This document shows, one piece after another, positions 70 to 28,066 of a stretch of 34,089 nt of DNA. The DNA is from a virus. A model generated the notes under the pieces. That model was not told the DNA's origin and did no database searches. It was given only the letters and a program-made list of their open reading frames with translations. The position numbers and the translations under genes were made by a program. The stretch's first letter is position 1. Each line of letters begins with the position of its first letter. Location: positions 1-34,089 of IMG/VR virus record IMGVR_UViG_3300011115_000094. One strand, 5' to 3'.

Positions 70-813
70 ATGGCCAGACAGTCAACACAAAAGCTCACGC
101 GGGCGCAAATCCGTGAAGGGCTGGATACGATCCCGATAGATACGCTACTAGGTGCCGGACAGGGTAAAACACCAAAGCTAACAACCAAGCAAAGGGATTT
201 TGCAAAGGCGGTGGCGATGGGAAAGACCAAAGCACAGGCATACAGGGAGAGCTATAAGGTAGACGCTGCACAGAGCACTATCGTATGCGCTCCGTACAAG
301 CTGGCAGCAGACGCAAGGATTCAACAAGAGGTCGAAGCCTATAAGATGGCAATAGAGGCGGAGAAACACCGAACCCCGGCTCAGTTAAAGGCTTTGTTAG
401 TGCAGCAGCTGGTCCAGCACTCGCTAGACAATGACTTTCCCCCAGCTAGTCGCGTGCAATGCTTGAAGCTCTTAGGCTCTCTCTTTGAGGTCCAAGCATT
501 CACCGAGCATAAGACTGTAGAACGGGTGGACCACAAAGCCAGCGACATCCGCACGCGCCTATTGTCCAGGCTGCAGACCATCACAGTCGACGCCAACATA
601 GTGGCCGATGATGCGCTAGACCTATTGGCCGAGATCAAATCAGGCAAAGCCATGCAGGAACTGTCGCCGGTAGTGGTCGACGATGGCCAGCCAGCAGGAC
701 CCACCACAGGGGCACCCCCGCTCACAGGCCAGCCGCGCAGGGGAGAGCCTTCACATACTATTCCACTCAAACGATCTGATCTAGAAACCGAAGTAATGGA
801 TTTTGACAAATAG
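70..813 (+). CDS. terS: Terminase small subunit (putative)
   Basis: A 247-residue protein likely to be the DNA-recognition subunit of the packaging motor. Residues about 36-63 (motif 'LTTKQRDFAKAVAMGKTK', then 'AQAYRESY') read as the helix-turn-helix typical of Terminase_2-type small subunits, where a run of K/T-x-x-Q-x-x-F precedes a Y-R-x-S-Y element. The middle (about 90-180) is helical and probably oligomerises. The last 45 residues are rich in Pro, Gly and charged residues and probably disordered, as in the large-terminase-contacting tail of this family. It lies one gene upstream of the large terminase, the usual place. The ATG at 70 has only a weak ribosome binding site. Family assignment rests on the N-terminal motif and the gene order. 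Confidence 0.75.
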   Translation: MARQSTQKLTRAQIREGLDTIPIDTLLGAGQGKTPKLTTKQRDFAKAVAMGKTKAQAYRESYKVDAAQSTIVCAPYKLAADARIQQEVEAYKMAIEAEKHRTPAQLKALLVQQLVQHSLDNDFPPASRVQCLKLLGSLFEVQAFTEHKTVERVDHKASDIRTRLLSRLQTITVDANIVADDALDLLAEIKSGKAMQELSPVVVDDGQPAGPTTGAPPLTGQPRRGEPSHTIPLKRSDLETEVMDFDK

Positions 814-860
814 CCCCCCTTGTGTTTTGGTACAAAAAGGGTGGGGGGTATATATTTTTT
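814..860 (+). terminator. Probable intrinsic terminator after the small terminase gene
   Basis: CCCCCCTT (814-821) can pair with AAGGG (837-841) and GGG (843-845) around a single T bulge, and is followed by TATATATTTTTT (849-860). The hairpin starts directly after the stop codon at 811-813. The bulge and the G run between stem and T tract make it weaker than a textbook terminator. It would separate terS transcription from the regulated unit that follows. Confidence 0.5.
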
Positions 861-861
861 G

Positions 862-934
862 GGAACTATAACAATGTTAAAGTTGGAGATACAAATGTTA
901 AATATTGGCCAACTTTAACAGGTGGTAAAGTTGT
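862..934 (+). promoter_or_regulatory. Operator cluster: palindromes built on TGTTAAAGTTGG
   Basis: The half-site TGTTAAAGTTGG occurs at 875-886 and, as a perfect 12-base inverted copy CCAACTTTAACA, at 909-920. Imperfect copies lie at 862-873 (inverted, 9/12), 896-908 (direct, one base longer) and 923-934 (direct, 10/12). They form two back-to-back palindromes, 862-886 and 909-934, with their centres about 47 bases apart and one half-site between. The cluster ends 45 bases before the start of a LexA-type winged-helix protein (979), so autoregulation is the simplest reading. I could not place a convincing -35/-10 pair; TATATC at 935-940 is a possible -10. Confidence 0.6.
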
Positions 935-978
935 TATATCCTAAAGAGCCATATACGGTAAAGAATAAGGAGTACCTC

Positions 979-1200
979 ATGACGGAGAAGCAGCGGACGG
1001 TTTTTCTTGTTATAGATGAGTACTGGAAGAACTTTGGGTATGGGCCGTCTATAGATGACATCATGTACCAGACGGGGGATAAGGGGCGGGGGAATGTTCA
1101 CAGGGTAGTTAAGAAGCTTTGTGATCTTGGGATCTGTAAGAGGGTGAGTAAGAGCGCCCGTAGTGTTCGGCCTAGTTATTTGTCTATGCGCAACATATGA
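979..1200 (+). CDS. LexA-type winged-helix DNA-binding protein
   Basis: A 73-residue protein that resembles only the N-terminal DNA-binding domain of LexA: 'MTEKQRTVFLVIDEYW' (helix 1), 'GYGPSIDDIMYQTG' (the G-x-x-P-S/T-x-x-x-I signature), 'NVHRVVKKLCDLG' (recognition helix region) and a basic wing 'KRVSKSARSVRP'. The LexA protease domain is absent, so it would not be cleaved by RecA. I start it at the ATG at 979 because AAGGAG (967-972) sits six bases upstream; a longer in-frame GTG reading from 922 would run into the operator cluster and has no such site. Its stop overlaps the large-terminase start (ATGA, 1197-1200). It probably represses or modulates its own unit through the repeats at 862-934. 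Regulatory function is inference. Confidence 0.72.
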   Translation: MTEKQRTVFLVIDEYWKNFGYGPSIDDIMYQTGDKGRGNVHRVVKKLCDLGICKRVSKSARSVRPSYLSMRNI

Positions 1201-3587
1201 ACATTGACGCTATTAGTAAGGCGATAGAGCTTTTGCCTGTGAATGAGCAGGAGGCTTTCTTTGATGAGTTGGATGAGTACCGGGCTTCTTTAGCCAGGGA
1301 AGAGGCGCAGGCGGATTTCCTAAAGTTTGTCCATACGATGTGGCCGGGGTTTATTGACGGAAGACACCATAAGGTAATGGCCAGGAAGTTTGAGGACATT
1401 GCGTCTGGGAAGATTAAGCGCCTGATCGTGAACATGCCGCCCAGACATACAAAATCTGAGTTCGCCAGTTACCTACTACCGGCTTGGTTCCTGGGTAAGT
1501 ACCCTAACAAGAAGATCATCCAGACATCTAATACGGCTGAGCTTGCGGTCGGGTTTGGACGTAAGGTCAGGAACCTTGTGGGTAGCGAGCAGTACTCCAA
1601 GATCTTTCCCAACGTTAATCTTAGGCAAGACAGTAAAGCCGCTGGAAGGTGGTCTACTAATAAGGATGGGGAATATTTTGCTATCGGGGTGGGGGGTACG
1701 GTGACCGGTAAGGGTGCGGACCTACTTATTATTGATGACCCTCACTCTGAGCAAGAGGCTGCTTTGGCGGCGGGTGATGCTTCGGTCTTTGACAAAGTCT
1801 ACGAGTGGTACACATCTGGACCCAGGCAGCGTCTTCAGCCTGGTGGCTCCATCATAGTAGTTATGTGCATGACCGGGGACACTTCAGTCCTGATGGCTGA
1901 CGGCTTCAGTAAACAGTTAAAAGACATCCATGCCGGGGATATGGTTGCTACCTTTAATAAAGGGCGATTGGGCGCAAGCAAGATTAACAACTGGCGGTCA
2001 AGTGGTGTTGATTCCATATACAAGGTACAAACACAATCTGGTAAAATTCTTCGTGCAAACGAGAGGCATCCGTTTCTTGTTATGAATGAAGGAGTATTGG
2101 AATGGACAAGATTGAACCAACTGCGCGAGCAGGATTTACTTGTATCACTGAAGGATGCAGTAGGCCGTCAAGATCTCAAACCAAACGAGGGGCGTGTACA
2201 GCCTGCCAATCCAAGGCAAGCTACCACCGAAAAAATCCCGAGGCTCCGCAACGACCAATTGGCTTTCATGGAAAGTGGATTGGAAAGCAGTGCGAATGTG
2301 GAAAGCCAGTTCACTGCAAAGGATTGTGCGCGGCTTGTTATCGAAAAAGCTACACCCCACCTGCAACAACTGCCGATCAGCGCCGAGCAAGCCGAATCAA
2401 ACACCGGTATGGAATCACGGCCTCAGACTATGCGCGCATGGTTCAAGAGCGCCGGAACAAATGCGATGTCTGCGGTGAGCCGCCTTCTGAGAAAAACACA
2501 AGGGCGCATTGGAACGGAAAGCTCTGCATTGACCACGACCATGACACAGGAAAAGTCAGGGGACTGCTTTGCAACGACTGCAACCTTACAGTTGGCTACG
2601 GAAAGAAGCCAAGCATTCTTGAAAGAGCTGCATCGTATCTCCGACTTCACGGTAGATCCGATAGTTAGCATTACCCCGGACGGCCAAGAGGAAGTTTTTG
2701 ACGTAGAGGTTGACGGAACTGAGAATTTTATTGCCAACGGAATTGTCAGCCACAACACCCGCTGGGCCAAGAGAGATTTGACGGGCCGGATTCTCCAATC
2801 CTCTATAGAGAAGGACGGGAACGACGAGTGGGAGGTAATCGACTTCCCCGCGATACTGCCCAGCGACAAACCCTTATGGCCTGAATTTTGGAGCCTGGAG
2901 GAGCTAGAGGCTCTACGCTCAGAACTACCCGTTGCAAAGTGGAATGCCCAATACCAACAGAGCCCAACCTCAGAGCAGGGCGCTATTGTTAAGCGGGAGT
3001 GGTGGAAGGAATGGAAAGCTGATGATCCACCTAAGTGTGAGTTTGTTATCCAAAGCTGGGATACAGCCTTCTTAAAGACAGAGCGTTCAGACTACTCTGC
3101 ATGTACTACCTGGGGTGTTTTTTATATTAATGAGAACCCCAATGATGCCAATATTATTTTGCTGGATTCTTTTAAACGCCGGATGGAGTTTCCAGAGCTA
3201 AAGGAAAAAGCCTTCAACCACTATAAACAGTGGGAGCCAGATGCTTTTATTGTCGAGGCTAAGGCTTCGGGAGCGCCATTAATCTTTGAGTTGCGGGCGA
3301 TGGGGATACCGGTACAAGAGTTTACGCCTAGCAGGGGTAATGATAAGATGGTGAGGATTAATTCTGTATCTGATCTGTTTGCAAGCGGGAAGGTTTGGGC
3401 GCCTGCTACAAGGTGGGCCGACGAGCTAATAGAAGAGATGGCCTCTTTCCCTAATGCAGATAATGATGACTTGGTTGACTCCGCTACCCAGGCATTAATC
3501 AGGTTCAGGAAGGGCGGCTTTATTCGCTTGCAGACCGACGAGCAAGACGAAATTCGTGCGTTTAGGCGCAAGGTATCTTATTACTAA
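1197..3587 (+). CDS. terL: Terminase large subunit, interrupted by an intein
   Basis: DNA-packaging ATPase and nuclease, 796 residues as translated and 499 after removal of the intein (residues 224-520), which is the usual size. The ATPase half shows Walker A 'MPPRHTKSE' (80-88), Walker B 'LLIIDD' (176-181) and the later conserved 'TRW' motif, which lies just after the intein (T521). The nuclease half shows the RNase-H-like acidic residues in 'SWDTAF' (D622), 'VEAKASG' (E687) and 'NDDLVD' (N756-D758). The extein sequence joins cleanly as 'GGSIIVVM' plus 'TRWAKRDLTGR', a normal terminase sequence. The start overlaps the stop of the winged-helix gene, suggesting coupled translation. The protein would be inactive until the intein is spliced out. 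Confidence 0.95.
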   Translation: MNIDAISKAIELLPVNEQEAFFDELDEYRASLAREEAQADFLKFVHTMWPGFIDGRHHKVMARKFEDIASGKIKRLIVNMPPRHTKSEFASYLLPAWFLGKYPNKKIIQTSNTAELAVGFGRKVRNLVGSEQYSKIFPNVNLRQDSKAAGRWSTNKDGEYFAIGVGGTVTGKGADLLIIDDPHSEQEAALAAGDASVFDKVYEWYTSGPRQRLQPGGSIIVVMCMTGDTSVLMADGFSKQLKDIHAGDMVATFNKGRLGASKINNWRSSGVDSIYKVQTQSGKILRANERHPFLVMNEGVLEWTRLNQLREQDLLVSLKDAVGRQDLKPNEGRVQPANPRQATTEKIPRLRNDQLAFMESGLESSANVESQFTAKDCARLVIEKATPHLQQLPISAEQAESNTGMESRPQTMRAWFKSAGTNAMSAVSRLLRKTQGRIGTESSALTTTMTQEKSGDCFATTATLQLATERSQAFLKELHRISDFTVDPIVSITPDGQEEVFDVEVDGTENFIANGIVSHNTRWAKRDLTGRILQSSIEKDGNDEWEVIDFPAILPSDKPLWPEFWSLEELEALRSELPVAKWNAQYQQSPTSEQGAIVKREWWKEWKADDPPKCEFVIQSWDTAFLKTERSDYSACTTWGVFYINENPNDANIILLDSFKRRMEFPELKEKAFNHYKQWEPDAFIVEAKASGAPLIFELRAMGIPVQEFTPSRGNDKMVRINSVSDLFASGKVWAPATRWADELIEEMASFPNADNDDLVDSATQALIRFRKGGFIRLQTDEQDEIRAFRRKVSYY
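2089..2094 (+). promoter_or_regulatory. Ribosome binding site of the nested endonuclease gene
   Basis: AAGGAG lies seven bases before the ATG at 2102. A TGA at 2087-2089 closes the same frame just upstream, so the nested gene cannot be a read-through extension and must start at its own ATG. The site lies inside intein coding sequence, just after block B. Confidence 0.75.
2102..2668 (+). CDS. Endonuclease VII-type HNH homing endonuclease, nested out of frame in the intein
   Basis: A 188-residue nuclease read in a different frame from the surrounding terminase/intein gene. The C-terminal part is a recombination-endonuclease-VII domain: zinc ligands C121, C124, C157 and C160, catalytic 'CIDHDHDTGKVRGLLCNDCN' with D144 and H145, and N161 at the position of the essential Asn of T4 endonuclease VII. 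The preceding 'KHRYGITASDYARMVQ' is the family's usual lead-in helix. The N-terminal part has two small Cys clusters (C14/C19/C32/C35 and C64/C66/C76/C79, 'CECGKPVHCKGLCAACYRK') that look like DNA-binding zinc knuckles of homing endonucleases. All catalytic residues are intact. It lies exactly between intein blocks B and F, has its own ribosome binding site and a TAG stop, and would act separately from the intein polypeptide. Confidence 0.88.
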   Translation: MDKIEPTARAGFTCITEGCSRPSRSQTKRGACTACQSKASYHRKNPEAPQRPIGFHGKWIGKQCECGKPVHCKGLCAACYRKSYTPPATTADQRRASRIKHRYGITASDYARMVQERRNKCDVCGEPPSEKNTRAHWNGKLCIDHDHDTGKVRGLLCNDCNLTVGYGKKPSILERAASYLRLHGRSDS

Positions 3588-13205: not shown

Positions 13206-13454
13206 ATGATGGCCAGCCGAGGGATGGGTGATATATCCCCATCCAAAATGCCTAAAGGTGTGCGCAAAGCCCGCCGAGATAACACCGACTTTACGGAATA
13301 TGCTAAAGGTGGTGAAGTCTGGGACAAAGCACGGCCCAAAAATTTAGGCCCATCTAAGCCATTAAGCGCAAGTAAAAAAGCCAAGGCTAAAGCTTCTGCC
13401 AAAGCTGCTGGTCGCCCGTATCCAAACTTAATTGACAATATGAAGGCTTCGTAA
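13206..13454 (+). CDS. Small basic conserved phage protein
   Basis: An 82-residue protein with 'ASRGMGDISPSKMPKGVRKA', 'YAKGGEVWDKARPKNLG' and a C-terminal 'SKKAKAKASAKAAGRPYPNL' plus IDNMKAS. This pattern recurs as a small protein upstream of the head-tail connector gene in related phages, so I regard it as a real conserved gene of unknown function. The Lys/Ala-rich C-terminal helix ending in 'GRPYPNL' is its most constant part. It contains the 'KGG' element seen in its neighbours but lacks the RADGIA tag. Its final base overlaps the next ATG (TAATG). Confidence 0.72.
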   Translation: MMASRGMGDISPSKMPKGVRKARRDNTDFTEYAKGGEVWDKARPKNLGPSKPLSASKKAKAKASAKAAGRPYPNLIDNMKAS

Positions 13455-14386
13455 TGTCCACTACCGGTTCCACAGCCTTTAATCTAGAGTTTACGGAACT
13501 TGCTGAAGAGGCTTGGGAGCGGGCTGGGCGCGAGATGCGCTCTGGCTATGATTTACGTACAGCGCGTAGATCACTTAACTTGATGACCATAGAGTGGGCT
13601 AATCGCGGCCTAAACATGTGGACCATTGAGACTGGCACTATTACCCTAACGCAGGGTCTTAACACCTACGCTTTGCCTACTGATACGATTGATCTACTAG
13701 ATCATGTGATTCGGACGCAGCCAAACGTAGCGTCAACCCAGGCCGACTTAAGCATAACCAGGATTAGCGTATCAACGTATGCAACTATCCCCAACAAGTT
13801 AGTTCAAGGCCGGCCAATCCAAGTATGGATTCAGCGTTTGTCTGGCGAGGTTGGACCCACTACTGCAACTTTAAATGGCGCTATCACAGCCACGGCTGAT
13901 TCCATTACTTTAAGTACTGTTGTAGGTTTGGCTGGATCTGGTTACATCCGTGTAGATAGTGAAGATATCTACTACACCTACATATCTGGAAATACCCTGG
14001 GCGGCGTTTTCCGAGGCCAAAACAACACAACCGCAGCTTCTCACACAACTTTAACAGCTGTTAAAGTTCCCCAGTTGCCTGCGGTTACGGTTTGGCCAAC
14101 ACCTGATGGCTCACAGACTTACCAATTTGTCTACTACAGACTGCGCCGCGTTCAAGATGCTGGCAAAGGTGTAGAAACGGCTGATATGAATTTTAGGTTT
14201 TTGCCCGCTGTAACTGCTGGATTGGCGTACTATATAGCCATGAAAGTGCCTGAGTTAATGGGCCGGCTTGATATGCTAAAAGCTGTTTATGAAGAGCAGT
14301 ACAAGCTTGCCGCTGGCGAAGACCATGAAAAAGCTACGCTACGTTTAGCGCCTCGTATGTCATATATTGGTGGAGGTGGCATGTAA
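13454..14386 (+). CDS. Head-tail connector / adaptor protein (gp4/gp11-like, putative)
   Basis: A 310-residue protein. The N-terminal helical part ('LAEEAWERAGREMRSGYDLR', then 'TARRSLNLMTIEWANRGLNM') and the C-terminal 'FRFLPAVTAGLAYYIAMKVP' with 'LKAVYEEQYKLAAGED' form the helical-bundle pattern of podovirus adaptor proteins that bind below the portal. Between them, residues about 125-210 are a beta-rich insert ('GAITATADSITLSTVVGLAG'), likely a separate surface domain. A similar helical architecture recurs in the protein at 15869. Exact homology to P22 gp4 or T7 gp11 would need a structure comparison. Confidence 0.65.
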   Translation: MSTTGSTAFNLEFTELAEEAWERAGREMRSGYDLRTARRSLNLMTIEWANRGLNMWTIETGTITLTQGLNTYALPTDTIDLLDHVIRTQPNVASTQADLSITRISVSTYATIPNKLVQGRPIQVWIQRLSGEVGPTTATLNGAITATADSITLSTVVGLAGSGYIRVDSEDIYYTYISGNTLGGVFRGQNNTTAASHTTLTAVKVPQLPAVTVWPTPDGSQTYQFVYYRLRRVQDAGKGVETADMNFRFLPAVTAGLAYYIAMKVPELMGRLDMLKAVYEEQYKLAAGEDHEKATLRLAPRMSYIGGGGM

Positions 14387-17180: not shown

Positions 17181-17672
17181 ATGGCAAACACACAGAGCAT
17201 GGCTACTTCGTTCCTTAGTGAACTGATGCTAGGCCAACACCAACTTGGTGCTTCTACTATTGTTTCCCGTGGCAGCTTAACCGCTCCTACTACGGACACC
17301 TTGAAAGCGGCATTGTTCCTCGCTTCGGCTACGATTAATGCTGCCACTACTGTGTATTCAACTACCGGTGAAGTTACTGGTACGGGCTACACAGCAGGCG
17401 GCGTAACGGTCACTAATGCTACTGCGCCAACGTCCACCAATTCCTCAGCAACGGCTGGCGTGGGTTACTGGACTCCTTCTGCATCTTTTGTATATACATC
17501 GGTTACATTGGCTACAGCTTTTGATTGTGTTTTGTTGTACAACTCAACGCAGAGTAATAAGGCAATCAGTGTTCACACGTTTGGTTCGCAGACAATCACT
17601 GCTGGAACATTTACGTTGACCATGCCGTCCAACACCACTACGACTGCTTTGTTGCGTTTGGCAACAACCTAA
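17181..17672 (+). CDS. Beta-rich virion protein, paralogue of 16567-16983
   Basis: A 163-residue protein, paralogous to the protein at 16567 but with an extra N-terminal 30 residues ('SMATSFLSELMLGQHQLGAS'). Shared elements: 'TTVYSTTGEVTGTGYTAGG', 'LLYNSTQSNKAISVHTFGSQ' and 'TFTLTMPSNTTTTALLRL'. AAGGA (17170-17174) lies upstream of the ATG. As for its paralogue, a tail or fibre-associated structural role is likely but not demonstrated by sequence alone. Confidence 0.68.
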   Translation: MANTQSMATSFLSELMLGQHQLGASTIVSRGSLTAPTTDTLKAALFLASATINAATTVYSTTGEVTGTGYTAGGVTVTNATAPTSTNSSATAGVGYWTPSASFVYTSVTLATAFDCVLLYNSTQSNKAISVHTFGSQTITAGTFTLTMPSNTTTTALLRLATT

Positions 17673-17699
17673 TAGCGGGGCGGCGTAAAGCCGTAGGCC

Positions 17700-18611
17700 A
17701 TGTTTGGTATAACCCCTTTTGCTGGAGCGCCTTTTGGCGCTACTGGCGATACCGCCATAGTACCAACTTCCGGTACGTGGGGATATGGCACTTGGGGTTC
17801 TGACCCTTGGGGCGGCTTTACTGGAACTGTAGTTGCTTTAACAGGTGTAGGTGCTGCCGGTACAGTTGGTGCGCTAACGCCAAGCAATGTAGGCGCAGTT
17901 ATTGGAGATGAAGCCACTGGTAGCGCAGGAACTACTGGGGTAAGTCATACTAATGCCGTAACCGGCGTTTTTGCAGATGGTGCGGTTGGTACAGTCTCTG
18001 ATAAGGGGATTAGTATTGGCATCACAGGAGTTGCTGCGGATGGTTCGGCAGGGACTCTTACTAGCAGCCGGACAGTTAACCTTACAGGCACTACTGCAAG
18101 CGGTTTACTCGGCGCGTTTGCTTTAAGTAATACTAACGCCGTAACAGGTGTTTTTGCGGATGGCGCGGTTGGTACGGTTTCTGACAAAGGAATTAGTATT
18201 GGCATTACCGGGAATGCCGCAATTGGAGCGACTGAAACTGTAAGCCCAAGCACACAAGTTGAAATACTCGGTGTTGAGGCAGCAGGAGAAGCGGGGTATT
18301 TGTCTGTACCCCTTAGCCCGCTTACTGCGGAAGGTAATGTAGGTTCTGTTGAGTTTGGGTTTGGTTTTGATCTGACCAGTACGGCAGCGCAAGCCTCTGC
18401 TGGCAGCGTGAGTGTAGGCAACAGGACATTGGCCCTGACCGGAGTGTCTGCGGCTGGCTCTGTTGGAACTATTGTTCCTGTATATTGGCAGTTAATTGAT
18501 AACAGCGAAACCGCAAACTGGATTAATATTAACAGCACACAGACCCCCGGCTGGTCTACAATTGAAGATAGTCAGGCCGCAGGATGGGTGTTGATTAACA
18601 GCGCAACATAG
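17700..18611 (+). CDS. Repeat-rich fibre-like structural protein
   Basis: A 303-residue protein made mostly of a loose repeat 'LTGVxAxGxVGTxxxS' recurring every 20-30 residues from about 45 to 265, typical of beta-helical or strand-stacked fibre proteins. The N-terminus 'FGITPFAGAPFGATGD' with 'WGYGTWGSDPWGGFTG' is Gly/Trp rich. The C-terminus 'WININSTQTPGWSTIEDSQA' contains two W-x-x-I/W-x-x-I repeats. A 26-residue repeat is exactly duplicated (17952-18029 and 18135-18212). The ribosome binding site is weak. I read it as a tail fibre or spike component; receptor binding is not shown. Confidence 0.62.
   Translation: MFGITPFAGAPFGATGDTAIVPTSGTWGYGTWGSDPWGGFTGTVVALTGVGAAGTVGALTPSNVGAVIGDEATGSAGTTGVSHTNAVTGVFADGAVGTVSDKGISIGITGVAADGSAGTLTSSRTVNLTGTTASGLLGAFALSNTNAVTGVFADGAVGTVSDKGISIGITGNAAIGATETVSPSTQVEILGVEAAGEAGYLSVPLSPLTAEGNVGSVEFGFGFDLTSTAAQASAGSVSVGNRTLALTGVSAAGSVGTIVPVYWQLIDNSETANWININSTQTPGWSTIEDSQAAGWVLINSAT
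17952..18212 (+). repeat. Duplicated 26-codon unit inside the fibre-like gene
   Basis: The peptide 'NAVTGVFADGAVGTVSDKGI' plus SIGITG is encoded at 17952-18029 and again at 18135-18212, 61 codons apart. The two copies encode identical residues but differ at the third position of 13 of 26 codons. Confidence 0.85.
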
Positions 18612-18619
18612 AGGTTTAA

Positions 18620-18964
18620 ATGGCACTTGTCTTAGCTGATCGGGTTCAAGAGACTACCGCAACGACGGGTACAGGCACTGTTACGCTTGCCGGAGCCGTA
18701 ACGGGCTATCAAACCTTTGCTGCCGTTGGGGATGGCAACTCCACCTACTACACCATTGCTGGAGGTACAGAGTGGGAGGTCGGTATTGGGACGTACACAT
18801 CGTCAGGTACAACTTTATCCAGAACCACTGTACTTTCTTCTAGTAATTCAGGATCGCTAGTAAATTTCTCAGCGGGTACAAAAAATGCATTTGTTACTTA
18901 CCCGGCTTCCGTATCCGTGCCAGAAGGTAAAGCAATAATTATGGCAATGGTTTTTGGATACTAA
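18620..18964 (+). CDS. Fibre-associated structural protein, unknown role
   Basis: A 114-residue protein beginning 'ALVLADRVQETTATTGTGTV' and containing 'WEVGIGTYTSSGTTLSRTTV' and 'SLVNFSAGTKNAFVTYPASV'. This combination is very common in tail-fibre-region proteins of diverse tailed phages, either free-standing or as a domain in long fibres. It is beta-rich, lacks cysteine and ends hydrophobic ('AIIMAMVFGY'). GAGG (18611-18614) precedes the ATG. I am confident it is a real structural gene; whether it is a fibre tip, a connector or a chaperone-like domain is unknown. Confidence 0.72.
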   Translation: MALVLADRVQETTATTGTGTVTLAGAVTGYQTFAAVGDGNSTYYTIAGGTEWEVGIGTYTSSGTTLSRTTVLSSSNSGSLVNFSAGTKNAFVTYPASVSVPEGKAIIMAMVFGY

Positions 18965-18973
18965 GGAATAAAT

Positions 18974-19345
18974 ATGGCAAACCCAAATATCGTTAACGTA
19001 ACTTCCATCTACGGAAGTACAAACTACTTAATCCCAAGCACCACATCGGCTACGACTTGGACTGCACTTACGCCTGCTGCCGGTACTGTCAATAAAGTTA
19101 ACAACATTGTTGCGTCTAATGTCACCGCTAGTAACGCCACTGTGACCGTTGCGATCAATAGCGCGGCGGCTGGCGCTGGTACAAACTACCGCCTAATTTA
19201 CCAAGTTCCTGTGCCAGTAAACGCTTCTATCGTGATCGTGGACAAAAGCACGGCGTTCTATTTGGGTGAAGCGCAATCTATTGTGGTAACTGTTGGAACG
19301 GCAAGCGCAATTGAGTTAACGTCGTCGTTTGAAGCAATTACCTAA
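18974..19345 (+). CDS. Small beta-rich virion protein
   Basis: A 123-residue protein, Val/Thr/Ala/Asn rich, with 'NIVNVTSIYGSTNYLIPSTT' and a C-terminal 'YLGEAQSIVVTVGTASAIEL'. The pattern suggests a jelly-roll or Ig-like domain of a tail or fibre accessory protein, similar to those that cap or trimerise fibres. AAGGA (18964-18968) lies upstream. Its stop overlaps the start of the next gene (TAATG, 19343-19347), so the two are probably made together. Confidence 0.66.
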   Translation: MANPNIVNVTSIYGSTNYLIPSTTSATTWTALTPAAGTVNKVNNIVASNVTASNATVTVAINSAAAGAGTNYRLIYQVPVPVNASIVIVDKSTAFYLGEAQSIVVTVGTASAIELTSSFEAIT

Positions 19346-20508
19346 TGTCCACGCAATACAAGGGGTCTGTTCTTTCATCGACAGAACAGCCTACATCAAC
19401 TTCTAGCGCCAAAGGCATTTGGACTACCAGTGATGTGATGCAGGCGCAAAAAGCGTCTACATGGGTTACTTTAGCTATCCCAATTGAATTTTTATTAATT
19501 GCTGGTGGTGGCTCTGGAGGCTATCAATATAGTGGCGGCGGCGGTGCTGGCGGTGTGGTTTCATCTACTTCGTTAAATGTTGTTCCTGCCACAAGCTACA
19601 CGGTAACCATTGGGGCCGGTGGAACATCAGCATCATCTAATACAACTGCTGCAAATGGAAACGGCAACAATTCGGTATTCTCAGCATCAGGCTCTAGCCC
19701 CGCAATAGCTGGTGGTGGTGGTGGTATTGATCTTAGTAAAGCCGGGGCTTCAGGTGGCTCTGGAGGCGGTGCTGCTTATTTAGGCGGATTTGCTGGTGGA
19801 ACTGGAACAGCAGGCCAAGGTAGGAATGGTGGTGCTGGAGATTCAAACAGCAACTTTGGCGGCGGTGGTGGTGGTCAAGGTGGTGTTGGTGCAGGCGGCA
19901 CAAACTCTACGGGTATTGGCGGCGTAGGACTGTTAAGCACTATCACTACAAATTTTGCTGGGACTGCTAACACAAGCACTAGCACAAGCATAAATATCAC
20001 TGCCGTTTCTGCTGGTGTTATAGGTATTGGTACGCAAATAACCGGATCAGGTGTTCCCGCAGGAACAGTTATTACCGCTTTGGGAACAGGTACAGGCGGC
20101 ACTGGTACTTACACCATGAACAAGGCTACTACTACTACGTTAACTGGAACCGCAATCACAAGCACTGGCGTTTACTATGCTGGCGGTGGTGGTGGTTGGA
20201 CTCGAAACACAGGCACAACTCTCGGCGGTTTAGGTGGTGGAGGTGGTGGAGTAACTGGCACTAATACATCCGCAGGCGGCGTTAACCAAGGTGGTGGTGG
20301 TGGTGGCGGTGGCGCGTCCGCAGTAGGCGGTACTGGTGGCTCTGGAATATTAGTTATTGCCTACCCCAACACATACGCTAATCTTTCTTCTGTAGCCGCA
20401 GGGCTGACTTGCAACGGCAGCGCAGGCAACACTACGCCAAATACAACATACCGTACTGGTTACAAGGTGTACAGATTCACTGCCGGTACTGGCGCTATTT
20501 CTTGGTAA
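19345..20508 (+). CDS. Glycine-rich tail adhesin / fibre protein 1
   Basis: A 387-residue protein. N-terminal about 50 residues ('YKGSVLSSTEQPTSTSSAKG') form a possible attachment domain shared with the next protein. From about 52 ('LLIAGGGSGGYQYSGGGGAG') the sequence is dominated by glycine blocks of the type found in polyglycine-sandwich phage adhesins such as gp38 of T-even-like phages, where the loops bind receptors. Residues about 203-275 ('NITAVSAGVIGIGTQITGSG' and following) are a Thr-rich beta module inserted into the glycine region. The C-terminus 'LTCNGSAGNTTPNTTYRTGY' is shared with the next protein. A host-recognition role is inference from the glycine architecture. Confidence 0.72.
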   Translation: MSTQYKGSVLSSTEQPTSTSSAKGIWTTSDVMQAQKASTWVTLAIPIEFLLIAGGGSGGYQYSGGGGAGGVVSSTSLNVVPATSYTVTIGAGGTSASSNTTAANGNGNNSVFSASGSSPAIAGGGGGIDLSKAGASGGSGGGAAYLGGFAGGTGTAGQGRNGGAGDSNSNFGGGGGGQGGVGAGGTNSTGIGGVGLLSTITTNFAGTANTSTSTSINITAVSAGVIGIGTQITGSGVPAGTVITALGTGTGGTGTYTMNKATTTTLTGTAITSTGVYYAGGGGGWTRNTGTTLGGLGGGGGGVTGTNTSAGGVNQGGGGGGGGASAVGGTGGSGILVIAYPNTYANLSSVAAGLTCNGSAGNTTPNTTYRTGYKVYRFTAGTGAISW

Positions 20509-20514
20509 ACAAAA

Positions 20515-21498
20515 ATGGCTACTAGATACCGAGGCTCCATTCTGTCGTCAACGGCGCAACCGACAACAACGTCTAGCGCCAAAGGCGTTTGGAAAATTGC
20601 TACTGTTTTGCAGGCGTTAAAAGCCGGAACATGGCCCCTTTTATTTATTCCAATAGAATATTTAGTACTTGCTGGTGGCGGTGCTGGTACTTGCGGAAAC
20701 TCAGGCAATATTGGTAACGGTGGTGGCGGAGCAGGGGGTTTATTGGCATCAACTGAAAATTTAAATTTTGGCACAGCTTACACATTTACGGTTGGCGCAG
20801 GAGCAACAGGAACAGCGGCTGGTTTGGGTAATGTTGCTTCTAATGGTTCAAATTCGGTAATTTCTGGCACAGGGCTTACTACAATAACTGCATTAGGCGG
20901 TGGCAGTGCAAAAGCGTATCAAGCAACAGCAGCAGCATCAAACTCTGGCGGTTGCGGTAGTGGGGGTACATACAACAATATTTCTCCGGGAACTGGAGCT
21001 GCTGGCCCACCAAGGCAAGGCTATGACGGCGCTGCGGGTATAAATTCTGGAAATTACACTGGTGGTGGTGGTGGTGGCACAGGCGCTAATGGTGTTGCTG
21101 GCGCTTCTGGTGGCACTGGTGGTGCAGGCTCTTCTAAAACCATAATGGGTTCAGCAATACTTTATGGTGGCGGCGGAGGTGGTGGAGTTATAAGTGGCTC
21201 CCCCGGCGCTGGAGGTACTGGTGGTGGCGGTGCTGGCGGTCTTAATGTAGCTGGTGTAGCGGGAACAGCAAACCTTGGCGGTGGCGGGGGTGGTGCTGGT
21301 TACATTAATGCAACAGGAGCTAATGGCGGCTCTGGCGTAGTTATTATTGCTTATTTAAGTTCTTACCCCAGCGCAACTGCTGCAAGTGCTGGCTTGACTA
21401 TTAACGGCAGCGCAGGAAACATTACCCCTGATACTGCGTCTAGGGCTGGATATAAGATATACAGAATTACCGCTGGTACGGGGACTATTACTTGGTAA
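20515..21498 (+). CDS. Glycine-rich tail adhesin / fibre protein 2 (paralogue)
   Basis: A 327-residue paralogue of the preceding protein: N-terminus 'YRGSILSSTAQPTTTSSAKG' followed by 'VWKIATVLQALKAGTW', and C-terminus 'LTINGSAGNITPDTASRAGY' correspond directly, whereas the glycine-rich middle ('GGGGAGGLLAS', 'GGGGGGTGANG', 'GGGGGGVISG') differs and lacks the Thr-rich insert. Conserved ends with a variable centre is what is expected of adhesins under receptor-driven selection. It starts six bases after the previous stop. Whether both are on the same virion or work alternatively cannot be seen. Confidence 0.72.
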   Translation: MATRYRGSILSSTAQPTTTSSAKGVWKIATVLQALKAGTWPLLFIPIEYLVLAGGGAGTCGNSGNIGNGGGGAGGLLASTENLNFGTAYTFTVGAGATGTAAGLGNVASNGSNSVISGTGLTTITALGGGSAKAYQATAAASNSGGCGSGGTYNNISPGTGAAGPPRQGYDGAAGINSGNYTGGGGGGTGANGVAGASGGTGGAGSSKTIMGSAILYGGGGGGGVISGSPGAGGTGGGGAGGLNVAGVAGTANLGGGGGGAGYINATGANGGSGVVIIAYLSSYPSATAASAGLTINGSAGNITPDTASRAGYKIYRITAGTGTITW

Positions 21499-21503
21499 AC
21501 AAT

Positions 21504-21863
21504 ATGGCACACTTTGCAGAACTTGATGAAAACAACGTGGTTACGCAAGTAATTGTGGGTGTTGACGAGCCTTTGGACGGCGAGGCTATCTATGCGGAAA
21601 CAACTGGTACGGTCTGGAAGAAGACCAGCTACAACACACAAGCTGGACAACATTTGTTGGGCGGCACGCCATTTCGTAAGAATTACGCGGGGATTGGGTA
21701 CAACTACGATCCAAACAGGGATGCGTTTATCCCGCCACAGCCATACCTAAGCTGGACACTTGACGAACAGACATGCCAATGGCATCCTCCGATACAATAC
21801 CCTAGTGATGACAAAAGTTACCAGTGGGATGAGCAAACTATTTCTTGGAAAGAAGTCCTATGA
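21504..21863 (+). CDS. Conserved phage protein MAHFAELDEN family, unknown function
   Basis: A 119-residue protein from the ATG at 21504; a TTG at 21492 in the same frame would overlap the previous gene and is less likely. 'MAHFAELDENNVVTQVIVGV', 'NYAGIGYNYDPNRDAFIPPQ', 'PYLSWTLDEQTCQW' and 'YQWDEQTISWKEV' form a pattern I know from many marine and freshwater phages, including cyanophages, where it is annotated only as hypothetical. The repeated W-x-L/D-E elements could be tail-associated binding repeats. Its stop overlaps the next ATG. Confidence 0.78.
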   Translation: MAHFAELDENNVVTQVIVGVDEPLDGEAIYAETTGTVWKKTSYNTQAGQHLLGGTPFRKNYAGIGYNYDPNRDAFIPPQPYLSWTLDEQTCQWHPPIQYPSDDKSYQWDEQTISWKEVL

Positions 21864-22774
21864 CAGTCAATTACACAACCAACCTAGCCCTTGGTCAGCC
21901 GGTAACCGGCACTGAGTCTGGTACATGGGGCGATGATGTAAACAACAGCATTACTGCCTACCTAGACATCGCTATTGCGGGCGGTCTGTCGATTGCCATT
22001 ACCACAGCAGACGTTACCTTAGCCAATACTCAGGGTACAAGTTCAGCAACCAACATCGGCTCAACCACTGCGCAATACGCTATCCTCAATATTACAGGTG
22101 CTAAAACAGCAGCCCGTAATTTAAATGTACCTGCATCTAGTAGGTATTACATCATTAACAACAGCGCCGCTACAGGTGGATTCTTACTAACAGTGCGCGG
22201 CGTAACTCCAACAACCGGCATCACACTTGTTGACGGTGAAAAAGCAATTGTTGCCTGGAACGGAACCGACTACGTAAAAATCGTATCGACTGCTTTATCC
22301 AATTCAACTGGAGTTGGAACAGGAGTTGTCACTGCGCTTGGTGTAAATGTAGGCACAGCAGGATCGGTTGTTGTTAATGGCGGTGCGCTAGGCACTCCAT
22401 CTTCAGGAACTTTGAGCAGCACTACGGTAGACGGTACAAATGGGGTTGGATACATTAACGTCCCACAAAATGCGCAGACAGGCAGCTACACGCTTGTAGC
22501 GGGAGATGCAGGCAAACACATATACCACGCTGCTGCGGCGGCGGTGGCTACTTACACAATCCCGGCTAACGGCTCTGTTGCATATGCAATTGGTACTGCT
22601 GTGACGTTCATCAACATGTCTACAAACGCAGTTACCATCGCCATTACAACAGATACGCTTTATCTAGGCGGTACAGGTACAACGGGCAGTAGAACCTTGG
22701 CTCAATATGGAGTCGCAACTGCTGTCAAGATGACCAGTACGACTTGGGTCATTACAGGTTCTGGGCTGACATAA
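21860..22774 (+). CDS. Tail fibre-like structural protein
   Basis: A 304-residue protein; ATG at 21860 overlaps the previous stop (ATGA), and an in-frame upstream ATG at 21845 is therefore unlikely. 'VNYTTNLALGQPVTGTESGT', 'WGDDVNNSITAYLDIAIAGG' and 'NSAATGGFLLTVRG' are common in phage fibre proteins, as is the later 'VVNGGALGTPSSGTLSSTTV' segment, which is typical of fibre shaft modules. The C-terminus is a beta domain with 'LYLGGTGTTGSRTLAQYGVA'. A role as fibre or baseplate-proximal protein is likely; receptor specificity cannot be read. Confidence 0.75.
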   Translation: MTVNYTTNLALGQPVTGTESGTWGDDVNNSITAYLDIAIAGGLSIAITTADVTLANTQGTSSATNIGSTTAQYAILNITGAKTAARNLNVPASSRYYIINNSAATGGFLLTVRGVTPTTGITLVDGEKAIVAWNGTDYVKIVSTALSNSTGVGTGVVTALGVNVGTAGSVVVNGGALGTPSSGTLSSTTVDGTNGVGYINVPQNAQTGSYTLVAGDAGKHIYHAAAAAVATYTIPANGSVAYAIGTAVTFINMSTNAVTIAITTDTLYLGGTGTTGSRTLAQYGVATAVKMTSTTWVITGSGLT

Positions 22775-22775
22775 C

Positions 22776-23594
22776 ATGGGCGCACCGCAACAATTACTTG
22801 TAGGCGCTGGCGGGGGTAGGCTTACCGCTACGGTAACTATTAGCGCCAGTACTCAAAACTACCTTGCAAACACGGCAAAAGTTTCTGGGTATGTGTCTGG
22901 TAATACAGATGTTACTTTTGTAATTAATTCCGGTGTTGTAGTTGGGTCATCCTCTACAGGCTCTTATGCATTTACGGTAAATACATCTTGGGCTGCTGGT
23001 GATACCGTAACTGTAACTAACGCAGGCACTGTTATTGGCGCTGGTGGAAACGGTGGTGCTGGCGGTAATGCCACTTACCCAACTTCGGTTACAAACGGAA
23101 CAGCAGGAAGTGCTGGTGGCCCAGCAGTATCTATTGCACGGGCTGTTACGTGGACTAACACGGGCACTTGTGGCGGTGGCGGAGGTGGTGGCGGGGGCGG
23201 AAACTCATGGCAAGGGTCAGTTTTATGCGCACCATTTGCTGCTTCAGGTAGCGGAGGCGGCGGAGGAAGAGGTAATAACGGCGGTTCTGGGGCTAGTGGC
23301 GGCGTAGCTGCTGGAGCTGGGGGCGCAAATAATCAAGGTGGCTCAGGAACTTCTGGAACAAGTGCTGCTAATGGATCAGGTGGAACTGGCACTGCCTCTG
23401 GCTTTGCTGGTAACGGTGGTGCTGGTGGGGCTTTAGGTTCTGTTGGTGCTGCCGGAGTAACAGCTACAGGTGGTGGTTCAGGATATAGCTCTGCTGGAGG
23501 CGGCGGGGCTGCTGGCGCTTGTTTAGTTGGTAAATCTTTTGTTAATGCTGGCGCTGGTATTACTGGCGGCACAACTGGTGGAGGTCAATCTTAA
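22776..23594 (+). CDS. Glycine-rich tail adhesin-like protein 3
   Basis: A 272-residue protein. The N-terminus ('MGAPQQLLVGAGGG', then a beta domain 'NYLANTAKVSGYVSGNTDVT' and 'VNTSWAAGDTVTVTNAGTVI') differs from the two earlier glycine-rich proteins. From about 88 to the end it is Gly/Ala/Ser with long glycine blocks ('GGGGGGGGGNSWQGS', 'GSGGGGGRGNNGGSG'), ending 'GGTTGGGQS'. It starts one base after the previous stop and ends with a TAATG overlap. It could be a tip protein of the preceding fibre, as in the two-gene shaft/adhesin arrangement of T-even-like phages; this is inference from order. Confidence 0.68.
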   Translation: MGAPQQLLVGAGGGRLTATVTISASTQNYLANTAKVSGYVSGNTDVTFVINSGVVVGSSSTGSYAFTVNTSWAAGDTVTVTNAGTVIGAGGNGGAGGNATYPTSVTNGTAGSAGGPAVSIARAVTWTNTGTCGGGGGGGGGGNSWQGSVLCAPFAASGSGGGGGRGNNGGSGASGGVAAGAGGANNQGGSGTSGTSAANGSGGTGTASGFAGNGGAGGALGSVGAAGVTATGGGSGYSSAGGGGAAGACLVGKSFVNAGAGITGGTTGGGQS

Positions 23595-23866
23595 TGGACT
23601 ATCGTATTATTGCTGCCGATGCAACTATCGGGCAAATTCAAGTAACGTACAGTAACGCTGGTGAAGACATCGCCACATACGCAATCGACGTACCTGTAGT
23701 TGATGGCGCATTTTTAACTGGAGATGCGCTTGCAGAAGAAATTCAACGCCGCGCTCCTGTGTGGCTTTTGGAACGTAAAGCAGAAGTTGCTGCTGCTACG
23801 GGATTCAATGAAATTCAAGCATTAGTACAAGCCCCTCCTCCTGATAATGGGTTGACACAGGTCTAG
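23594..23866 (+). CDS. Small fibre-region protein, unknown function
   Basis: A 90-residue protein. 'MDYRIIAADATIGQIQVTYS' and 'IATYAIDVPVVDGAFLTGDA' are beta-like; 'LAEEIQRRAPVWLLERKAEV' is a helix with alternating charges, followed by a short Pro-rich end. The mix of one beta domain and a helix is compatible with a small assembly factor for the adhesin before it, but no tail-fibre-assembly signature is certain. The start overlaps the previous stop (TAATG). Real gene, function unknown. Confidence 0.6.
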   Translation: MDYRIIAADATIGQIQVTYSNAGEDIATYAIDVPVVDGAFLTGDALAEEIQRRAPVWLLERKAEVAAATGFNEIQALVQAPPPDNGLTQV

Positions 23867-23873
23867 CGTCGAT

Positions 23874-24152
23874 ATGAACGTAATACCCGCAACCCATATA
23901 TTCCACTACGTTGGGATGACAATGGGTGTTTACCATGCAAAGCAGGGTGAGGGGCTTCCTATGCATGAACATGACTTTAAACATGCTACTGTATGCCACG
24001 CCGGTTCTTGTGTAGTTCGCGTTAAAGGTCGGGAGATTATTATGGAGCCGGGAACAAAGCCACTTGATCTTCCTGCGGACATACCGCACGAAATTGAAGC
24101 GTTGGAAGATGGCACGGTATTTACTAATATTTTTGCAAGTACAGTAAATTAG
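23874..24152 (+). CDS. Small cupin-fold protein
   Basis: A 92-residue single-domain cupin. The metal-binding pattern is 'HEHDFKHATVCHAGSCVV' (H31, H33, H37), preceded by 'GEGLPM', and the second motif is 'PGTKPLDLPADIPHEIEALE', with His about 71 as the likely fourth ligand. Strand-turn repeats ('VRVKGREIIMEPG') fit a small double-stranded beta barrel. The substrate is unknown; phage cupins have been seen both as structural domains and as possible small-molecule or sugar-modifying enzymes. It lies between the fibre genes and the lysis genes, so a link to the tail or to host-surface modification is possible but unproven. Confidence 0.75.
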   Translation: MNVIPATHIFHYVGMTMGVYHAKQGEGLPMHEHDFKHATVCHAGSCVVRVKGREIIMEPGTKPLDLPADIPHEIEALEDGTVFTNIFASTVN

Positions 24153-24166
24153 GAAACTCCCTATGT

Positions 24167-24475
24167 ATGCGTTTGTTTCTGGTTTTTTTGATGCTGGTAA
24201 CGGTATCACTTGCACAGGACAAGCTGATTTTGAGCAAGACACCACCGCCTCTGCCCAAAAAGCAATCAAGTTGCGCGGTGCAAGAACTTTACGTCATAGG
24301 TTTAACAACCCACGACCCAGCAGAGCGTCACAAGGCTATGCTGCAATGGTTGGATGAGAACCCATGCAGTTCGGACGATTACGTAAATATTTGGAACGCC
24401 TTGCCGGAGTGGGCAGGCACATCAGACAGTCCTTTGCTACGCGCAAAGATCATAGAAAAAGTGAGGAAAAAGTGA
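24167..24475 (+). CDS. Secreted small protein of the lysis cassette
   Basis: A 102-residue protein with a signal peptide: 'MRLFLVFLMLVTVSLAQ' has a basic n-region, hydrophobic core and a VSLA-QD cleavage site. The mature part has two Cys ('SSCAVQELYVIGLTTHDPAE' and 'LDENPCSSDD') that could form a disulphide in the periplasm, then 'WNALPEWAGT'. No lipobox is visible, so it is not a typical outer-membrane spanin. The family is familiar next to holins in related phages; periplasmic function unknown. A second ATG at 24163 is in another frame. Its stop overlaps the next start (GTGA). Confidence 0.66.
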   Translation: MRLFLVFLMLVTVSLAQDKLILSKTPPPLPKKQSSCAVQELYVIGLTTHDPAERHKAMLQWLDENPCSSDDYVNIWNALPEWAGTSDSPLLRAKIIEKVRKK

Positions 24476-24723
24476 ACGACAACATCAAGGCTAGACTTAC
24501 CTTTGCCGTGACGCTTATGGTTAGCGCCACCTTATGCCTATCTGTAATTGGCATGGTTTCAGCATTCTTGCTTGGTTTGTGGTCAAAAGAAGTGGATAAC
24601 AGCGAGATATTTAAACTGCTGTCCCCAGCATTCCAAACCATCATTGGCGGCTTTATTGGCCTGCTGGCTGGTGTAAAACTCTCCCATGACGAGGATAATG
24701 TTCCTCCCTGCAAAAAGGACTGA
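24472..24723 (+). CDS. Two-span membrane protein, putative holin
   Basis: An 83-residue protein starting at GTG 24472, which overlaps the previous stop (GTGA, 24472-24475) and has GAGGA (24463-24467) upstream; a longer in-frame reading from 24364 would overlap the secreted protein in full and is unlikely. Two hydrophobic segments, 'LTFAVTLMVSATLCLSVIGM' with 'VSAFLLGLW' (about 9-37) and 'LLSPAFQTIIGGFIGLLAGV' (about 48-67), are separated by a charged loop 'SKEVDNSEIFK'. Size and layout fit a class II holin. The C-terminus is charged and ends 'PPCKKD'. Confidence 0.65.
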   Translation: MNDNIKARLTFAVTLMVSATLCLSVIGMVSAFLLGLWSKEVDNSEIFKLLSPAFQTIIGGFIGLLAGVKLSHDEDNVPPCKKD

Positions 24724-24724
24724 T

Positions 24725-25219
24725 ATGTTTGATTTACTTGGCGGCGGTATCCTTGGCTCCCTATTAGGGGGTGTGTTTCGTTTGGCTCCTGAAGTCCTGA
24801 AATGGATGGACAAGAAGAACGAGCGGGGGCATGAGCTGTTAATGTTCAGCCAACAGTGCCAGTTGGAGCAGTTGCGCGGTCAGCAAAAGCTGGCTGAGAT
24901 TGGAGCGCAGCGCGAGGCTACGGTGGATGCTGGCGTGATGGATGCGTTCAACTCCGCCGTTGAGCAGCAGACCGAAATGGTGAAAGCTGCCGGTGGTTGG
25001 GCCGCAAGCCTGTCCGCCTCGGTTCGTCCAGTGGCAACCTACTGGATTTTGATGCTGTGGAGTTTCGCGCACATCTGGTTTGCATGGACTGCGTGGGCGG
25101 CTGGCGCACCACCAGAGGCAGTGTTTAAGCTGATCATGTCCGCTGACTTTGCGGCCTTGGTATCAGGCACCTTGAACTACTGGTTCCTAGACCGTACCCT
25201 GGCCAAGCGTGGGCTATGA
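24725..25219 (+). CDS. Holin-like protein with membrane spans (3TM holin family)
   Basis: A 164-residue protein from the ATG at 24725. The N-terminal 'FDLLGGGILGSLLGGVFRLA' is hydrophobic, followed by a helical charged region (about 25-85, 'QLRGQQKLAEIGAQREATVD'), then two C-terminal spans ('PVATYWILMLWSFAHIWFAW' and 'ADFAALVSGTLNYWFLD'). This matches the layout of the gene-transfer-agent/phage 3TM holin family. It lies between the small holin and the lysozyme, so it may be the main holin, with the smaller protein as antiholin or pinholin; which does which cannot be decided here. Confidence 0.72.
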   Translation: MFDLLGGGILGSLLGGVFRLAPEVLKWMDKKNERGHELLMFSQQCQLEQLRGQQKLAEIGAQREATVDAGVMDAFNSAVEQQTEMVKAAGGWAASLSASVRPVATYWILMLWSFAHIWFAWTAWAAGAPPEAVFKLIMSADFAALVSGTLNYWFLDRTLAKRGL

Positions 25220-25659
25220 AGCTAGACATTGCCGCAGCGTTGTGCAAGCAGTTTGAGGGGTATAGGGGTAAACCCTATTTATGCCCGGCAGGTGTCGCCA
25301 CGATTGGTTTTGGAAGCACTTATTACGCCGACGGGCGTAAGGTGGCATTGACAGATGCGCCTATGTCCGAGCCGGACGCAACTTTGTTGCTACTGCAAGA
25401 ACTTCACCACACCTACTTACCGGCTGTATTGCGCCAATGCCCGGTCTTATTGACCGACGAGAAAAAGTGCAACGCCATCGTGGACTTCGCCTACAATTTA
25501 GGCACGGGACGTTTACAGACCAGCACCCTCAAGCGCAGAATAAATGCGCAGGATTGGGAGGGTGCAAAGCAGCAGCTTATGCTCTGGACAAAAGGTGGTG
25601 GACGAGTATTGCCGGGGTTAGTTAAACGCAGAACTGCGGAATGCCGATTACTGGATTAA
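25216..25659 (+). CDS. Endolysin, GH24 lysozyme (muramidase)
   Basis: A 147-residue soluble T4-type lysozyme that cuts the glycan strands of host peptidoglycan. The family catalytic pattern E-x8-[D/C]-x5-T is present as E14, C23 and T29 in 'FEGYRGKPYLCPAGVATIGF'. 'AIVDFAYNLGTGRLQTSTLK' and 'WTKGGGRVLPGLVKRRTAEC' are the usual conserved C-terminal lobe elements. The third position is Cys rather than Asp, a known variant. There is no signal peptide or SAR anchor, so it needs the holin upstream to reach the periplasm. It overlaps the holin stop (ATGA, 25216-25219). Confidence 0.93.
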   Translation: MKLDIAAALCKQFEGYRGKPYLCPAGVATIGFGSTYYADGRKVALTDAPMSEPDATLLLLQELHHTYLPAVLRQCPVLLTDEKKCNAIVDFAYNLGTGRLQTSTLKRRINAQDWEGAKQQLMLWTKGGGRVLPGLVKRRTAECRLLD

Positions 25660-25662
25660 CGT

Positions 25663-27762: not shown

Positions 27763-27763
27763 T

Positions 27764-28066
27764 ATGGCACAAAAAAATGTAACTGCCCCCAAACTACCTG
27801 CTGCAATAGGCGACACCTATGATCCTGCGCTTATAAATCAGCTAACCAATATATTGCGGCTGTACTTTAACCAGCTAGATAATGCAGGGCCGATGGTGGC
27901 AAGTACACAGCGCAACGGTACAGATATCGTGGCGGGGTTAAGTTTTTTCCCAACGGGAACTTCAACAACACCAAGCCTTCCAACACAAGCAGATTTAGCC
28001 AATTTGAGGGTAGGGGATATATACTACGACACCTCGGCTAGTAACGTTTTGAAGGTAAAAACATGA
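27764..28066 (+). CDS. Small tail-region protein, unknown function
   Basis: A 100-residue protein from the ATG at 27764; an upstream in-frame ATG would overlap the hub gene by 180 bases and is unlikely. 'MAQKNVTAPKLPAAIGDTYD' and 'ALINQLTNILRLYFNQLDNA' (a helix) lead to 'ANLRVGDIYYDTSASNVLKV'. The combination of a short helix and a beta hairpin 'RVGDIYYDTSASNVLKVK' resembles attachment pieces at the C-terminus of phage tail proteins. It overlaps the next start (ATGA). Role unknown. Confidence 0.62.
   Translation: MAQKNVTAPKLPAAIGDTYDPALINQLTNILRLYFNQLDNAGPMVASTQRNGTDIVAGLSFFPTGTSTTPSLPTQADLANLRVGDIYYDTSASNVLKVKT

Follow-up and report, generated by a model that had tools for sequence, protein, structure and literature searches.

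The window analysed here, a linear IMG/VR virus record of 34,089 bases, carries inverted repeats in the gap between the genes taken as terS and terL, next to a short gene with a LexA-type winged-helix domain (wHTH), and this arrangement raises the question of which protein reads the repeats and what the reading is for. Judged from comparison with related phages, the palindromes near the packaging genes appear to belong to a group of short sites that are dispersed over the genome of a freshwater phage. Their most likely reader is a ParB-like protein whose gene lies elsewhere on the phage, not the product of the adjacent LexA-like gene. Who reads the sites is better supported than what the reading is for.

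Palindromes between the terminase genes

The features of the window to which the following text refers are:

70..813, + strand: gene taken as terS, 247 aa, assigned by its position and by the initial annotation
814..860, + strand: terminator-like C6...G6 hairpin with T-run, directly after terS and upstream of dyad 1
865..883, no strand: dyad 1, ACTATAACA-a-TGTTAAAGT, 1-bp gap, putative parS/OB-like site
889..908, + strand: scar in which the RBS and ATGTTAAA of a small gene are joined to TATTGGCC, the 3' end of that gene, from alignment to relatives
911..932, no strand: dyad 2, AACTTTAACA-gg-TGGTAAAGTT, 2-bp gap, overlapping the probable wHTH gene start
931..1200, + strand: LexA-type wHTH gene (PF01726), 89 aa from TTG 931 or 92 aa from GTG 922
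1197..3587, + strand: terL, 796 aa, containing an intein; operon downstream of the dyads
13454..14386, + strand: SU10-adaptor-like gene, host of dyad 3
14047..14068, no strand: dyad 3, perfect 22-bp AACTTTAACAGCTGTTAAAGTT, within the SU10-adaptor gene at offset +594

The initial annotation described an array of two back-to-back palindromes and one half-site, built round a 12-base inverted pair (875-886 and 909-920). This pair is exact and the palindromes are real, but the anatomy is that of two dyads, of which the perfect pair joins the right arm of dyad 1 to the left arm of dyad 2. Further inverted arms lie at 910-920 and 923-933 and at 867-879 and 926-938. Dyads of 22-23 bp with at least 9 of 10 positions paired occur six times in the window, as opposed to none in three shuffles, and in a scan of the window a degenerate 20-base dyad pattern matched 911-932 and 14047-14068, while the reversed control pattern gave no match. 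The proposed separate half-site at 889-902 was not retained, as it aligns with the RBS and start codon of a small gene (MLKFDGF..., phrog_13182) in relatives. For the same reason 889..908 was rejected as a third operator, the alignment identifying it as a leftover of the phrog_13182 gene, which is found between terS and the wHTH gene in L003, L004 and L007-L018 and is deleted in the window. Most close relatives keep this gene between the two dyads, and the counterpart of dyad 1 in L003, L004 and L016 is located at its start. Dyad 2 is identical in sequence in G001 and G002. The offset of dyad 3 is kept in G002, and G004 has a diverged dyad at that offset. The hairpin at 814..860, read from the sequence and its relatives, is conserved in the latter; its loop is long, which is why the stem-loop scan did not report it for the + strand. 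For the gene in the terS position, neither Pfam nor PHROG gave a match.

The small protein encoded next to the array does contain a LexA-type DNA-binding domain (PF01726, E=5.8e-6, 26.4 bits against a cut-off of 23.7), which is its likeness to the LexA/SOS box system. However, it differs from this system in that it comprises only 73-92 aa, of which the DNA-binding part alone matches, with the LexA peptidase domain absent, and in that it does not track the sites. Since relatives keep the N-terminal extension LYPKEPYTVKNKEYL, the gene probably starts at TTG 931 or GTG 922, and ATG 979 is probably internal to it. The assumed distance of 45 bases between the end of the array and the gene therefore does not hold; dyad 2 would instead overlap the gene start. 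The intein of the downstream TerL extends from 1866 to 2756 (residues 224-520, Cys as first and HN as last residues; PF14890, E=4.7e-17), and the TerL of G002 has 499 aa, the length expected without an intein.

Site families in related phage genomes

The wHTH protein is encoded by 175 viral contigs and had no match in the phage collection; the isolate relatives identified by TerL are HTVC027P, 023Pt_psg01 and DSL-LC04. Upstream of most of the wHTH genes there are dyads whose arms and core vary between contigs. That the repeats might be missing where the wHTH gene is kept applies to a minority: most relatives retain dyads within the 330 bp ahead of the gene at the threshold used, and several, among them G006, L201 and L212, do not. 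In the relatives of about 60 kb, each genome has a dyad family of its own, whose members are uniform and unlike those of other genomes (six or more members in the clearest cases), and the families occupy matching places, namely the terS-terL gap, the head of the early operon, a giant polyvalent gene, the adaptor gene and a Toprim gene. The types include AACTTTAACA in G002, AATTAACA and ATATTAACA in G012/G011, ATATTATCA in G013 and ACACTAACA in G010. Their common form spans 19-20 bp and consists of an outer arm with NCA, a gap of 1-2 bp, and TGN with the other outer arm; gaps of 1 and of 2 bp at times occur within one genome.

Dyads with the inner CA/TG number 156 in 82 ParB contigs, compared with 23 in dinucleotide shuffles. 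Under strict recurrence, the maximum number of partners per dyad was five each in G002, G012 and G016 and seven in MW202545, as opposed to at most one partner in 10 shuffles of each genome; the dispersed dyads per genome amount to six in G016, eight in MW202545 and at least six in G002 and G012. The dyads of G003 and G006 were not above shuffles in this test. The half-site recurs elsewhere, both as the perfect dyad at 14047-14068 and at unlinked places in relatives, and the suggestion of a phage-specific set of putative protein-binding palindromes heading the packaging operon is supported. The 77-kb contig L100/G014 was discarded as a relative: its single pattern match is attributed to chance, as there was no wHTH or ParB match and its dyads were not above shuffles.

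At least 587 ParB-like loci are present in the viral collection. Two distant ParB relatives own scattered dyad families, and none was seen in two others. In MW202545 (57,457 b), whose ParB is 33% identical, there are eight TTACTAGTC-N-GACTAGTAA dyads, a type that did not occur in ten shuffles, and two of the eight lie inside parB. G016 (L275-L278) has six GACTGTAAC-NN-GTTACAGTC dyads, whose AAC-N2-GTT spacing is shorter than the 3-4 nt of the main group. In G017 and G018, which have a ParB-like gene, no dyad family was detected at the threshold used. In two contigs of Phycisphaerales type, the dyads come as pairs within or next to parB, and in L230 the pair is upstream. Paired dyads inside or beside the linker-coding region of parB in distant relatives are located at 20476 and 20503 in L231, 10412 and 10478 in L227, and 10446 and 10509 in L228.

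Inside coding sequence, the dyads are conserved at the DNA level. In the giant polyvalent gene, the dyad stays after an AMLxE stretch and the encoded peptide varies (TLPPVKV, TITNVTV, LINSVNY, DIITDNM, DTNTVSV). The Toprim gene (a match to Toprim_3 at E=1.8e-5, which is below the cut-off) encodes FIFNNVKVE at the dyad in G002 and FICNSVTVE in G003 (codons read by eye), and the changes fall at the arms and fit each genome's own half-site. The dyad-carrying giant polyvalent protein of G002 has 3737 aa (17538-28751, L102:17538 to L103:8751) with LPD38, ART-PolyVal and DNA_methylase matches.

A T5+ run is found no more than 12 nt away from 40 of the 156 dyads, compared with 2% of random positions. 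These dyads are found mostly at two homologous spots, the head of the parB-containing early operon and the terS-terL gap, so that two conserved sites directly follow terminators and head operons. For 5 of 18 distinct early sites, a loose search found a TTGACA-18-TATAAA/TACAGT box whose start is 23-55 bp downstream. Downstream of many other early-site dyads no promoter is recognisable, which leaves a regulatory role weakly supported, and under the rule of the tool the promoter consensus scans around the L142 and L117 early sites yielded none.

A ParB-like protein as predicted reader

The candidate reader is encoded in G002 at 39116-39919 (267 aa), about 10 kb away and outside the window; the window contig itself is without parB, and its ParB type was inferred from G002, which has the same dyads at matching places. 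The association between protein and sites was compared across the 80 ParB contigs that were fetched. In the HTH helix of the protein, the first variable residues differ between genomes within an otherwise constant stretch, and they pair with the core of the dyads: VSxM with TAACA, VSIS with TATCA, VSLA with TTTCA and VSVQ with ATTCCA, to which ISSK with AGACA is added by a single dyad. When residue 134 (M or other) is compared with the third base of the half-site (A or other), the contigs divide into 42/4 and 3/13 (Fisher p=1.3e-7, at contig level and uncorrected for relatedness, the relatives not being independent). The dyads at the early-operon terminator and in the terS-terL gap both switch type with ParB.

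When the HTH columns are left out of the ParB tree, VSIS falls into two clades apart from each other. In both, the third base of the half-site is T, clearly in G013, L216 and L219 and more weakly in L208 and L201. VSLA (TTTCA) is nested at one VSIS clade, and VSVQ (TTCCA) is separate, beside the other; for L201, L202 and L207 the evidence consists of one dyad each. By this comparison, site and ParB-like protein appear to have changed together several times. There are exceptions: the VSVQ contigs L194 and L195 keep one TTAACA dyad and L200 shows the TTAACA type alone, L208 (VSIS) also keeps one TTAACA dyad, the sites of VSKA (G003) are mixed, and in the KM genomes G005 and G008 the commonest base is not A. 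At position 3208 of L211, a VSAM contig, a ATATTAGCA/TGATAATAT dyad typical of VSIS phages is located upstream of parB, possibly a recombinant boundary. The VSVQ site ACTATTCCACGTGGAATAGT contains TTCCACGTGGAA, the core of bacterial parS, a likeness to the ParB/parS system.

According to its models and profile matches, the protein has a ParB fold in its N-domain. A 28-sequence profile matches ParB/Spo0J/Noc chains in the PDB across the N-domain and the HTH (best E=1.6e-7), and the match to the PHROG ParB-like partition protein has E=5e-16, whereas that to PF02195 (E=0.0021) is below its cut-off. A model of residues 1-165 from a broader alignment (pLDDT 87) retrieved ParB, Noc and KorB in Foldseek, with E-values down to 3.7e-9, and VIA gave Z 13.9 to ParB over 94 residues (2.2 Å) and Z 12.3 to KorB 8qa9 over 143 residues (4.8 Å). 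The full-length model, with an overall pLDDT of 61, was excluded from the fold search; in it, the C-terminal third is modelled as long helices at 177-206 and 211-266. The HTH at residues 122-142 aligns with that of Spo0J/ParB and in the model is followed by a two-strand wing, and winged-helix proteins also match, so that the protein would differ from canonical ParB. In the model, the second HTH helix begins with residues 133/134, which are associated with the dyad core, and in the HMM alignment to Spo0J residue 133 takes the position of R/Q173, the specificity residue of ParB/Noc (PMC7383237). By eye, a Box I-like GGTQPR and a Box II-like DGFHRxHA are present, and the Box III ENxQR is replaced by ANxxHGKxR; a survey describes a diverged Box III as frequent among orphan ParBs (PMC12704722).

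Possible roles of the sites

Taken together, we consider it fairly probable that the dyads are sites of the parS or KorB-operator type for an orphan ParB-like protein that acts as a KorB-like regulator or DNA clamp. Each phage would have its genome-specific dyad family bound by its own ParB-like protein, predicted to consist of a ParB-type N-domain, an HTH modelled as winged and a C-terminal helical region. A dimer would load at the dyads, that is, behind the terminators at the heads of the parB-containing early operon and the wHTH-terL structural operon as well as within several genes. The loaded protein may act as a global regulator or clamp, probably autoregulatory, that would coordinate early and structural transcription. 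That the spacing differs by 1 bp in a single genome is unusual for rigid dimers and counts against this reading.

KorB of plasmid RK2 is the nearest described counterpart, as it is a ParB-fold protein that silences promoters from near and distant OB operators (PMC11790492). However, no KorA partner was identified for the phage protein, its HTH models as winged, its Box III is non-canonical, the spacer of its sites is 1 or 2 bp (with the AAC-GTT spacing also shorter in G016), and a KorB-type clamp is a prediction for it. The consulted part of the survey of orphan ParB-fold proteins in bacteria, archaea and phages describes the ParB fold outside parAB operons, including in phages, and divergent Box III; the difference is that this part reports no cognate dispersed DNA sites for the phage members (PMC12704722).

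Dispersed sites for one phage protein in a phage genome exist as the stoperators of mycobacteriophage L5 and the SopB sites of N15. The likeness is one of description, and no repressor-type or SopB/ParA genes are shown here in the present phages.

For function, the main rival is that the ParB-like reader serves segregation, condensation or localisation at the same sites, as in a plasmid-prophage or in the manner of Noc, instead of transcription control. The ParB/Noc fold and the dispersal of the sites round the genome and inside genes, like Noc sites, agree with this. ParB/parS and Noc/NBS share palindromic sites with the present phages, and their specificity is determined at the start of the HTH recognition helix, as it would be for the predicted reader (PMC7383237, PMC8429893). 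We regard the segregation role as unlikely: no ParA of the PF13614 family was found in 10 genomes, several of them incomplete (positive controls 14/14), the ParA-binding motif occurs in 0 of 79 ParB sequences, and the two conserved sites at operon heads behind terminators point elsewhere. A further difference from these systems is that at least four site specificities occur within one phage group.

The pairing proposed at the outset, in which the LexA-type wHTH protein encoded alongside uses the dyads as operators and represses its own gene and the packaging operon, is based on adjacency, the LexA-type domain and the overlap of dyad 2 with the probable gene start, and small HTH proteins can be co-repressors with a ParB-type protein, as KorA is with KorB (PMC11790492). 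However, the recognition helix of the wHTH protein is identical across contigs with TTAACA, TTATCA and TTTTCA dyads; the same region RGNVHRVVKKLCDLGICRRAKNSARS is accompanied just upstream by ATATTAACA, TAATTAACA, ACATTAACA, ATATTATCA or ATATTTTCA. Because identical wHTH regions accompany different dyad cores, this protein is an unlikely reader, and since most sites are kilobases from its gene, several of them inside unrelated genes, we consider the pairing very improbable.

Slightly less probable still are RNA hairpins acting in the transcript as attenuators or RBS masks, for which the complementary arms and the position of the dyads behind terminators and across start codons at the terL operon could speak. 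The changes of the core track the protein recognition helix at distant loci, there are copies inside coding sequence without a regulatory start, mismatches such as TAACA against TACCA would give A.G and not G.U in RNA, and Rfam had 0 matches in 1-2000. The location between terS and terL would also suit a pac/cos-type packaging site recognised by TerS, but this has the least in its favour of all, as the dyad family recurs at several unlinked places per genome and tracks ParB.

If the ParB-like protein is the reader, its helix variants and their sites (VSxM/TAACA, VSIS/TATCA, VSLA/TTTCA, VSVQ/TTCCA) form a natural series of matched pairs in which changes of DNA specificity are directly testable, and the reading offers a hypothesis of function for phage ParB-like proteins annotated merely as partition or nuclease-domain proteins. 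More tentatively, ParA-less phage ParB-type proteins may be a widespread class that controls or organises whole genomes via dispersed sites, with specificity switching at all sites together within a phage group; searches of the openly accessible literature, which leaves most subscription papers outside, gave no direct precedent for dispersed ParB sites in ParA-less phages. If true, such a joint switch could divide closely related phages into classes of incompatibility or immunity. An operator family held in coding genes by DNA-level selection would, moreover, be missed by an annotation of promoters only.
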